Shown: positions 3,075 to 55,687 of the stretch, one piece after another | Position numbering within the stretch: position 1 is the stretch's first letter | Layout: every line of letters begins with the position of its first letter | Origin: Roseobacter fucihabitans | GTDB lineage: Bacteria > Pseudomonadota > Alphaproteobacteria > Rhodobacterales > Rhodobacteraceae | Direction of reading: 5' to 3' | DNA length: 64,000 nucleotides | NCBI RefSeq assembly: GCF_014337925.2 | Contig: NZ_CP143423.1 | Coordinates: 898,501 to 962,500, forward strand | Notes under the pieces: model-generated | What the model was told of the DNA's origin: nothing | What the model saw: the letters and a program-made list of their open reading frames with translations, nothing else | Databases searched by the model: none | Made by a program: the position numbers and the translations under genes

Positions 3075-3245
3075 GCCGGGCCTCTGGCGTTGCTGGTCTT
3101 GCAGTTACTCATACTTATCCCGTTGGCCCGACGCATGGGGATGGAAGAAATCGCAGGAATCCTAAACGGTATCGACCTGCCCTGCCCCCCCGAAACTTCC
3201 CTCAGTTTGATGTAGGGTTTGCTCAGCCTTTGAAGGAGCAGACAA

Positions 3246-3551
3246 ATGCGACAGAGTTGTTTTACCGAGGCCCGGATTATCGGGATGATCAAAGAACAGG
3301 AAGCTGGGATGCCGACGGCAGAGGTGTGTCGCAGACATGGTCTGAGCCAATGCATCGTTCTGCAAATTCAAAGCAAAATACGGCGGCATGCGTTGCACGG
3401 CAGGGTATCGCGCAGCGATGTCCCGAGGGTGAACGTTTCTGACACCCACCGCCTCAAATCGCTGGAGGACAAGAGCGCCAAGCTGAAGCGTCTTCTGGCG
3501 GACACGATGCTCAACAACGTCATGTTGAAAGATTTGCTGGGAAAGAACTGA
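3246..3551 (+). pseudogene. IS3-family transposase OrfA, disrupted
   Basis: The N-terminus is a normal helix-turn-helix OrfA (FTEARIIGMIKEQEAG, then TAEVCRRHGLS), and the C-terminus is the leucine-zipper region LEDKSAKLKRLLADTML...LKDLLGKN. Between them, about residues 36-62 do not fit the family: one extra base shifts the frame after HGLS, and a palindromic insertion at 3391-3429 follows, after which the frame is correct again. The inserted residues (about HALHGRVSRSDVPR) replace the usual short YGGM linker. The open frame therefore survives by compensating indels, not by function. Confidence 0.8.
3391..3429 (+). repeat. Palindromic element, site 0 (in OrfA)
   Basis: The first hairpin region reads GTTGCACGGCAG. 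The second hairpin has 9-bp arms GGGTATCGC and GCGATGTCC around the loop GCA (two G-T wobbles), and the tail is CGAGGG. It is the most divergent copy of the family and is recognised by architecture and by its position as extra sequence inside OrfA. Confidence 0.65.
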
Positions 3552-3671
3552 CGGTGAGCCATTGATGCGCCATTGGTTCGAGCACGATGGCGAACGCATG
3601 TGCGACGGGCTGCGGCACGCAAGGCGATGGGAGATCATGATATCTCGCAACGTCGGGCGTGCAGGCTTGTC

Positions 3672-3707
3672 CCTCTCACACATGCAAGCATGTGTTGCCC
3701 GCCAACG
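3672..3707 (-). repeat. Palindromic element, site A (in OrfB, inverted)
   Basis: On the minus strand it reads CGTTGGCGGGCAAC, then 8-bp arms ACACATGC / GCATGTGT around TT, then GAGAGG. It interrupts OrfB between CRLV and GVGPK and adds 36 bp, so the frame is preserved through 12 foreign codons. Confidence 0.75.
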
Positions 3708-3746
3708 GGTGTCGGCCCCAAGACCATCCGGCGCGACAAACCGCCC

Positions 3747-3784
3747 ACTGCCCGGCAGTCGATACGCAGTATCGATGAGAGGGG
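3747..3784 (+). repeat. Palindromic element, site B (in OrfB)
   Basis: The flanks ACTGCCCGGCAG and GAGAGGGG match site E exactly, but the central stem is different: GTCGATAC / GTATCGAT around the loop GCA. The arms remain fully complementary apart from one G-T pair. It follows the codons for RDKPP in OrfB. Confidence 0.75.
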
Positions 3785-3826
3785 CCGGATCGGCGTGCTG
3801 TTGGAACGCAAAGGCATGATTATGAT

Positions 3827-3865
3827 ACTGTCACCCGGCAGTGCATGTTTACATGCATGAGAGGG
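3827..3865 (+). repeat. Palindromic element, site C (in OrfB)
   Basis: ACTG is separated by three extra bases (TCA) from CCCGGCAG. Arms GTGCATGT / ACATGCAT surround TT, followed by GAGAGGG. It sits between codons for ERKGMIM and HKKLYRLY and shifts the frame. Confidence 0.8.
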
Positions 3866-4024
3866 CACAAGAAGCTGTATCGTCTCTACACCGAGGAAAA
3901 GCTGGGCGTCAGGCGGCGCCGAGGCCGCAAACGAGCGCGAGGATCAGGAATACCGATGCCTGTTGCGTTACGTCCTGGTGAACGCTGATCGCTGGACTTT
4001 GTGTCTGACACGTTTGGTGCGTCC

Positions 4025-4061
4025 ATTGCCCGGCAATGCATGTTTACATGCATGAGAGGGG
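4025..4061 (+). repeat. Palindromic element, site D (in OrfB), 37 bp
   Basis: ATTGCCCGGCA, then arms ATGCATGT / ACATGCAT around TT, then GAGAGGGG. The first hairpin TTGCC/GGCAA carries a T-A pair where sites B and E have C-G. It interrupts OrfB between FGAS and RKFRMLA. The inferred empty target is TCC^CGCA. Confidence 0.88.
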
Positions 4062-4120
4062 CGCAAGTTCCGTATGTTAGCCATGAACAACGACTGCTGC
4101 CGCGAGAACCTGTGCCTCCT

Positions 4121-4164
4121 CCCGGCAGGTTTGGCTTTGCCAAATCGCCTGCCGGGCAACGGAT
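4121..4164 (-). repeat. Palindromic element, site F (in OrfB, inverted, long form)
   Basis: On the minus strand it begins CGTTGCCCGGCAGG, then TTTGGC / GCCAAA around AAA, then CCTGCCGGG in place of the usual GAGAGGGG tail. The outer arms CCCGGCAGG and CCTGCCGGG (9 bp) also pair, giving a longer nested hairpin. It interrupts OrfB between ENLCLL and ADTSITG. Confidence 0.7.
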
Positions 4165-4630
4165 GGCTGATACCAGTATCACTGGTGCGAGGGTGGCACG
4201 CGAGCTTGATGCGCTTGTGCGCGTCTATGGAAAGCCCGCCTGTATCGTCAGTGATAACGGCACGGAATTTACCAGTCGTGCGATCCTGAAACGGGCCGGT
4301 GATAACGACGTGGATTGGCATTACATCGACCCGGGCAAGCCGACGCAGAATGCCTTCATCGAAAGCTTCAATGGGAGCCTGCGAGACGAACTGCTGAATG
4401 AGGAGATCTTCGACACCTTGGATGATGCCCGTCGAAAGCTGGCCCTCTGGCGATACGATTATAATAACGTCAGACCGCATTCATCGCTGGAGAACCAAAC
4501 GCCGGCAGAAGCGCGCCGGGCGCTTGAGCAATTTGAGGGCTCCGCGCACGACGCGCTTGCCCAAACCGACGACGACGAGTACGACCGCAAACTCTCGTTA
4601 TGAATGAGGGAGCCTCGGGGGGGCAGATCA

Positions 4631-54873: not shown

Positions 54874-55687
54874 TTAGGCGGCCATTTTGTCCATCGCCTT
54901 TCTGTGCGAGAATTCCATCGGGGTCAGGTTTCCCGAGCCTGAATGTGGTCTTTGCCAGTTGTAATCCTCCTGCCATTCTTCGAGCGTTTTGCGAGCATCG
55001 CCTAAAGCACCAAACAGCGTTTCGTTGAGGCATTCATCCACTGCCCGGCAGTGCATGTTTACATGCACGAGAGGGGCGCAGCTTGCCGTTGAAGCTTTCA
55101 ATGAAACCGTTCTGCCGGGGCCTTCCGGGCGCGATGTAGTGCCAGTCAATGCCGGTATCCTGAACCCATTTGAGAGGATCGCCATGCTGGTGAACTCGGT
55201 ACCGTTGTCCGATACAATCGTCGTTGGCATGCCGCGTTCAGTAATGATCTGATCCAGTTCACGCGCGACCGTTGACCAGACAGCGACGTGTCGGCCACCA
55301 GCACCAAGTTCTCGCGGCTGAAGCCATCGACAACTGCCAAAATGCGAAACCGACGTCCATCTGTCAGCGCGTCAGACACGAAATCCAACGACCAATGCTG
55401 GTTCGGTCCGTTGGGCAATGCCATTGGCTTCCTCGTTCCCAACGCGCGCTTCCTGCCACCCCTGCGACACACCTGAAGCTTCTCTCTTCACGATAGATGC
55501 GCCGCACTTTCTTGTGGTTCACCTCAAAGCCCTCCCGCGCAATCATCACGTGGATGCGGCGGCACCCAAACCGACGTCGTTCACGAGAAACGCGTTTGAT
55601 TGCATCTCTTAGCTCAGCATCATCGCCTCGGCGCGACAGATGCGCGATTGAAGTCGTTGGTGCGGATATTATTCTACGCTCTTTCAT
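54874..55687 (-). pseudogene. Second IS3-family OrfB remnant, broken by frameshifts
   Basis: Minus-strand fragments in order are RDAIKRVSRERRRFGCRRI, HKKVRRIYREE, then after a 2-base insertion CRRGGRKRALGTRKPMALPNGPNQHWSLDFVSDAL (first Asp), DTSLSGQR. After a 1-base deletion come [16 protein letters not shown] (second Asp), and after a further 2-base insertion and palindromic element [24 protein letters not shown] and the C-terminus RPHSGSGNLTPMEF. It is a different IS3 lineage from the copy at 3178. No orfA is present. The upstream boundary lies against a truncated gene at 55690. Confidence 0.85.
55040..55076 (+). repeat. Palindromic element, site E, in the second IS3 remnant, 37 bp
   Basis: ACTGCCCGGCA, then arms GTGCATGT / ACATGCAC around TT, then GAGAGGGG. 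It splits the IS3 catalytic NGKLR / DECLNE junction. It is 37 bp like site D, and the inferred empty target TCC^CGCA is the same as for site D although the host genes differ. Confidence 0.88.

Follow-up and report, generated by a model that had tools for sequence, protein, structure and literature searches.

Short palindromic inserts in an IS3 element of Roseobacter fucihabitans appear to belong to a family dispersed in Rhodobacterales

An IS3-family element in a 64,000-nucleotide stretch of the Roseobacter fucihabitans genome (hereafter the window) carries six short inserts, and a seventh lies in a second IS3 of the same stretch. We think it rather probable that these inserts are short mobile palindromes of Rhodobacterales, most of them 37 or 41 nt long, and that they are mobilized in trans, their mobility being suggested by how they are distributed. 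Comparisons across genomes support the view that they belong to a palindromic family dispersed in this order. The literature searched, few subscription journals among it, gave no name or description for the family, in agreement with the original prediction, which had recognised no named family.

Seven inserts in two IS3 elements

The features discussed are listed with their position in the window, their strand and the evidence for each.

3188..4622, + strand: IS3-family element of the orfA/orfB type with six inserts inside; ends approximate, read by eye
3391..3431, + strand: element 1, 41 nt; absent in both relatives; family model 54.2 bits, E 1.8e-10
3671..3707, - strand: element 2, 36-37 nt, antisense to the gene; alignment to relatives and pattern; missed by the 41-nt model
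3746..3783, + strand: element 3, 38 nt; alignment to relatives; family model 38.2 bits
3829..3865, + strand: element 4, 37 nt, with a decayed 5' end; alignment and pattern; model match at 3832-3865, 15.7 bits, E 0.12
4024..4060, + strand: element 5, 37 nt; alignment to relatives; family model 29.5 bits
4117..4161, - strand: element 6, 44-45 nt, antisense; alignment; family model 20.6 bits, E 0.0091
55039..55075, + strand: element 7, 37 nt, antisense in the second IS3; stem-plus-tail match, relative L089, model 35.4 bits

That six inserts interrupt the orfA/orfB homology, with a seventh in another IS, had been read correctly from the start, and only their edges shift, by 1-4 bases. Two uninterrupted relatives of the window IS3 (L132, with an orfA of 87 aa and an orfB of 294 aa, and L133, with 87 aa and 289 aa) are 68-70% identical to it, and in the alignment all six segments are missing from both. 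The same segments in intact relatives had been named beforehand as the sign that they are native parts of the IS3; this sign was sought and not found in L132 and L133. A native origin would account for the same positions in identical copies of the IS3, but it agrees neither with the two intact relatives nor with the occurrence of such elements in some ten further IS families, and we give it practically no weight.

A family model (R1) recovered six of the seven window inserts at E ≤ 0.12, missing 3671-3707, and three more matches in the window (E 0.35-0.55) are at chance level. The stem plus tail of element 5 (25 bases), with up to three mismatches, occurs three times in the window, itself included, versus none in 100 shuffles; the short motif YTGCCNGGCAR alone is a weak signal, found four times versus a mean of 0.76 expected by chance. 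An Rfam search across the window IS3 gave no match at E ≤ 1. About 600 bp upstream of the IS3, at 2166-2588, lies a class A bacterial RNase P RNA (262 bits).

The window IS3 is a non-autonomous copy. Its terminal repeats are imperfect and, in our own reading of the alignment to the relatives, about 65 bp of host sequence (orfB) is lost beside element 3 and one extra base is present at element 4. Its earlier description as a remnant holds insofar as it is disabled, but it does not stand alone: in the same genome three further copies match it at 100% (rounded) along 1422-1432 bp, and two more match in part. Three identical copies, despite defects beyond the inserts, suggest movement with outside help, in trans. 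A different IS3 unit (L085), with at least four elements and the end of orfB lost, is present at five further loci over 87-100% of its length and at >99% identity, and in parts at two loci. We infer mobilization in trans for the copies of both units.

Across ten copies of one IS3 family, the matches listed show at least a dozen exact sites that hold an element, and the same single IS sites in different genomes carry elements with quite different stems, which points to independent insertion events. In L074, another copy of the window IS3, the element 3 site is occupied by an element whose stem differs, with host-like sequence behind it, and at the element 5 site a diverged IS3 (L192) of Roseobacter sp. 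GAI101 carries a nearly identical element. Besides carrying element 7, the second window IS3 has three gaps of 1-2 bases against its relative L089; the two are 85% identical, yet the element is identical in both, which would fit a recent independent insertion or copying rather than descent. In another IS3 (L223), one script found nine elements and another found eight.

Shape, insertion and target of the palindromes

Structure was analyzed in a set of 209 sites (137 distinct sequences) from which weaker matches had been dropped. Lengths of 37 nt (85 sites) and 41 nt (69 sites) dominate, and the consensus consists of CAYTG-CCC-GGCA and GAGA-GGG with a freely varying stem. In 28 distinct 37-mers, positions 14-19 are paired with their partners in all 28, with two to four pair types each, and when the right halves of the stems were re-dealt the mean energy was -4.84 kcal/mol, versus -9.28 kcal/mol for the real pairing. 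In 30 aligned 41-mers, one long hairpin together with a C1-G5 pair has 98.9% of its cells paired, two-sided changes occur in 8 of the 12 pairs of this structure, and its covariation score is 0.392, compared with 0.123 when shuffled and at most 0.073 when slid. The CCC/GGG foot shows few changes, one of them two-sided.

Minimum-energy RNA folds of 139 distinct elements close with CCC/GGG in 121 cases, form the first hairpin in 5 and fold otherwise in 13. As single-stranded DNA, the long hairpin was obtained for three of four sequences (two copies, one on both strands), and insert 3746-3783 folded into a two-hairpin form. The original prediction had proposed an architecture of two hairpins; the long hairpin does covary, but the proposed first one (YTGCC-C-GGCAR) shows no two-sided change and no covariation in the aligned copies. 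Covariation and folds together therefore make one imperfect hairpin, its internal loop formed by GGCA/GAGA, the likely shape.

Compared with uninterrupted relatives, most sites have no bases duplicated or missing, inserts 3 and 4 being the exceptions, and insertion looks seamless and without target duplication; the two antisense elements of the window IS3 (2 and 6) fit best with one base fewer than the insertion rule gives. As to features of MITEs moved by a DDE transposon, no target-site duplication was seen at sites compared with uninterrupted relatives or read across. The profile match of an IS3 gene (L112) covers positions 175-281 on one side of its insert and resumes beyond it at 282-368. 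Behind an integron-type integrase gene, an IS91 transposase (L110, genome G383) holds three elements with frames otherwise open, and by our own reading it continues exactly across all three.

With the element disregarded, the frame is kept at 24 of the 32 sites (of 171) that are clearly coding on both sides, where chance would give one third; this comparison replaced an earlier one with 120-nt flanks, in which 52 of 118 strand views were in frame and the excess was on the antisense only. When the elements were omitted from 14 IS stretches, the longest open frame became longer in seven, shorter in six and unchanged in one (for L089 and L110 a chance match was cut out along with the elements), the largest gains being in L062 and in L223, where the frame grew from 180 to 313 aa over seven junctions. 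Carriers range from L223, with nine elements and no other break (its 3' end is missing), to L064 and L121, with several other breaks, and both orientations of the element occur, also within one gene.

Mitochondrial double-hairpin and bypassing elements are short folded mobile inserts, some of them within genes, and the Roseobacter palindromes could similarly be tolerated in IS if they were excised from the transcript or if the ribosome bypassed them. The exact boundaries, the strong folding and the 313-aa frame of L223, with its up to nine elements, are what such a mechanism would produce. It is difficult to reconcile, however, with both orientations in the same gene, with the other disabling changes in the window IS3, the element 7 IS3 and the eight-locus L085 unit, or with the fact that no element-carrying host gene was found, and we regard it as improbable. 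Unlike the mitochondrial elements, the Roseobacter palindromes are bacterial, occur in both orientations and show no sign of bypass.

Rickettsia palindromic elements likewise lie within genes of alphaproteobacteria and are read through in frame in host genes (in part PMC3733652). Here, the length is a multiple of 3 in 17 of the 209 elements and the carriers are mainly transposase genes, and thus the likeness first drawn to these elements does not extend to in-frame insertion.

The four bases upstream of the element are CATC at 62 and CGTC at 16 of the 209 sites; CRTC fits exactly at 78 and YRTY at 114, and CRTC upstream is a preference. Because CRTC-like bases are also present in the uninterrupted relatives, they belong to the host sequence and not to the element. 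Over 244 distinct sites, bases 1 and 5 of the element are C-G in 204, T-A in 13, T-G in 3, C-A in none and other in 24. The host base behind is C after 11 of the 13 T-A elements, and after the 204 C-G elements it is C in 4 and G in 157 (Fisher 1e-13, a value that is too small since some dependence exists between sites).

In a stricter set of 198 sites, a host C stands behind 11 of 12 T-A elements versus 1 of 180 C-G elements; the T-A elements of this set have ten different stems and are therefore not one clone. In uninterrupted relatives at T-A sites, as far as read, the base behind is also C. From these sequence comparisons, the switch at bases 1 and 5 may be read as a rule by which element and target recognize each other.

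Spread of the family and residence in insertion sequences

A strict pattern (TGCCCGGCA-N(10-30)-GAGAGGG) has 96 matches in the R. fucihabitans genome (4.85 Mb) and none when reversed. A covariance model, built on 30 of 60 distinct 41-nt copies and thus under-representing those of 37 nt, finds at least 139 copies, a floor because 150 of 4094 candidates were scored; the 96 and the 139 overlap. The pattern is present in 133 of 394 genomes of the bacterial family, part of them by chance, as 10 of 30 loci inspected had no qualifying hairpin, and the reversed control is present in 17 of 394 by our own count. These counts support the original view of a dispersed family of palindromes, foreign to the window IS3.

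With a slightly tighter pattern, 83 of 244 genomes of the order match, and 2 match the reversed control. At the level of the class, 6 of 385 genomes match, and since G000 and three family members are among the six, two lie outside the family. G652 and G730, from other families of the class, hold two palindrome-like copies each, perhaps acquired by gene transfer. One subfamily has 67 named places, whose titles are nearly all from Rhodobacterales, the other titles being Cohaesibacter marisflavi (L183), a Robiginitomaculum MAG (L180, L195) and an Alphaproteobacteria-labelled MAG (L229). The genome G476 holds 86 copies of the palindrome.

A plasmid search with one window element as query gave no match, and one with a 42-nt query gave 186 places in 98 records; Dinoroseobacter shibae is among the carriers. 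Among 50,697 phage records, one 42-nt query found two partial matches, and in viral contigs 50 stretches (L243-L292) fit a loose pattern, perhaps partly by chance. The counts reported here were drawn from stricter sets than our set of 305 sites, which holds chance matches in plain IS coding sequence (L140, L144, L148, L151 and L160, for example). A subfamily with the stem GGCGATTTTTCGCAGAAAAATCTGCC was noted at five places in G377 and at L111; the L111 copy is intergenic by our own reading, near a nucleoside diphosphate kinase gene.

To locate the elements, flanks were searched with profiles, in scans that tally fragments and not sites. In the R. fucihabitans genome, 73 distinct sites (77 found, 4 weak ones dropped) yielded 146 fragments, which match transposases or general HTH/ATPase models among the 25 of 54 Pfam and 25 of 39 NCBIfam families listed. 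Of ten fragments from unclear sites, two match transposases and eight match nothing; judged by eye on sequence motifs, most of these sites look like IS.

Classification site by site covered 24 elements from 20 other genomes (30 loci, 10 of them dropped for lack of a qualifying hairpin): 19 lie in IS by tool, two (L119 and L126) lie in IS by our own reading of the translations, and three (L111, L114 and L122) lie outside IS, also by our own reading. The 133 fragments from 67 named and 5 plasmid loci match mainly transposases among the 25 of 184 NCBIfam and 25 of 27 Pfam families listed, with single non-IS matches to an ABC transporter, RadC, a T6SS phospholipase family and an AAA model. At L217, a chimeric ABC/RadC fragment adjoins the element.

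In G476, 91 fragments (23 distinct sites of 30 loci) match mainly transposases, together with one efflux protein and a few weak others, and 4 of 10 fragments scanned singly have no match. By our own reading, three G476 loci (L295, L309 and L313) are IS110-like units that hold several degenerate palindrome copies; all three units share a conserved stretch, and one copy lies immediately upstream of it. On plasmids, an annotated feature lies under the best place in 5 of the 60 records listed (98 matched), namely three transposases and two hypothetical proteins; one record is without annotation and the gene table omits pseudogenes. The carrier families assigned are IS3, IS5, IS1182, IS21, IS66, IS110, IS30, IS256, IS91, IS6 and IS200, and in the sites classed and flanks scanned no intact host gene was found interrupted by an element.

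The same mobile family could have reached this distribution by random insertion at its target bases, with selection alone concentrating it in IS as hits in host genes were purged and those in IS did no harm or even helped. In favor of this explanation, many of the carrier IS are already defective, a few copies are found outside IS, and the copying of IS multiplies the elements they carry. However, it predicts many copies in dispensable accessory genes, host pseudogenes and intergenic DNA, and the flank families listed are mainly transposases; in G478, moreover, all seven strict matches fall in two stretches (C6:4124-5075 and C8:4780-4920). We hold selection alone to be a less probable alternative, and lean toward preferred targeting as the more likely source of the bias because, in counts unscaled for the amount of such DNA, no copy was found in dispensable host genes or host pseudogenes.

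A bolder reading, which we consider unlikely although worth stating, is that of a Rhodobacterales system that preferentially writes frame-breaking palindromes into transposase genes, hitting numerous IS families without mutual relationship, frequently with more than one palindrome in an IS, and following a readable element-to-target code, and which would be either a transposon-directed gene-breaking system or a hyperparasite of IS.

Candidate mobilizers and known systems

REP elements are imperfect palindromes of 20-40 nt that are dispersed, thought to be mobile and without a gene of their own, and the Roseobacter palindromes fall within their size range. Miniature elements derived from IS200/IS605 insert seamlessly after a short target, have folded ends and a target choice tied to element bases; unlike for these, no Y1 gene with matching ends was seen, and the 86-copy genome has no Y1. 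Movement as a REP family by a RAYT/Y1 transposase, suggested originally along with a Y1 gene flanked by copies, would agree with small imperfect palindromes, seamless insertion and a likeness to IS200/IS605 target choice. Elements are also in mild excess in Y1-bearing genomes, at 12 of 23 versus 71 of the 221 others, taking both draws of 244 order genomes, 23 of which have a Y1 match, as the same genomes.

Within 1.5 kb on each side, however, none of the ten Y1 loci of the R. fucihabitans genome is bracketed by copies, one (L173) having one degenerate motif copy nearby; G476 has no match to PF01797 (Y1) despite its 86 copies, most element-bearing genomes are without a Y1 match, and the palindromes reside in genes and not between them. 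We therefore rejected Y1/RAYT as the mobilizer, and a REP family moved in this way has little likelihood.

The printed descriptions differ as well. In the parts of PMC3733652 available to us, REPs are mostly intergenic and GTAG- or CGTC-tagged, whereas the Roseobacter palindromes are mainly in IS genes (with 19 of the 24 in IS by tool, two by our own reading and three outside), have CRTC-like upstream bases that belong to the host instead of a GTAG or CGTC tag within the repeat, and have no Y1 partner that we found. The nearest kind in the same text is that of CGTC-tagged REPs, mostly alphaproteobacterial, with no known transposase, CGTC beside the palindrome and some copies intragenic; in them the stem measures 8-9 bp and starts with AT, and in most a CCA tail follows at the end (PMC3733652, in part). 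The Roseobacter palindromes differ from these in stem, tail and location, and their consensus has neither an AT-starting stem nor a CCA tail.

Reverse transcriptase (PF00078) was also considered and rejected, as its absence from the element-rich genomes G476 and G490 indicates that it is not required. No mobilizing enzyme was found for the family among the Y1 and reverse transcriptase candidates checked. With no Y1 in the 86-copy genome and no reverse transcriptase in two rich genomes, we propose a trans-acting strand-transfer enzyme. The folded single strand would be the substrate of this putative enzyme, which would read the CCC-GGCA/GAGA-GGG foot together with the target. Each insertion would usually break its gene, after which other transposases acting in trans, together with gene transfer, would spread the disabled, element-bearing IS.

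If this explanation is correct, it would add a short mobile family without a known enzyme that combines seamless insertion, a target code and a bias to transposase genes. Two questions would become testable: by what means non-coding palindromes such as the CGTC REPs are mobilized when no transposase is known for them, and whether insertion serves bacteria or hyperparasites to disable IS. Part of the frameshifted transposase pseudogenes of Roseobacters would be accounted for as well. According to PMC3646047, Octadecabacter genomes are rich in IS and have many IS-linked pseudogenes, and the words 'palindrom' and 'repeat' do not occur in its text.

As a minor observation, three loci (L169-L171, at G000:C1:436639, 3626497 and 3701079) hold an IS200-type Y1 gene that is itself interrupted by an element, in each case behind GCCATC.
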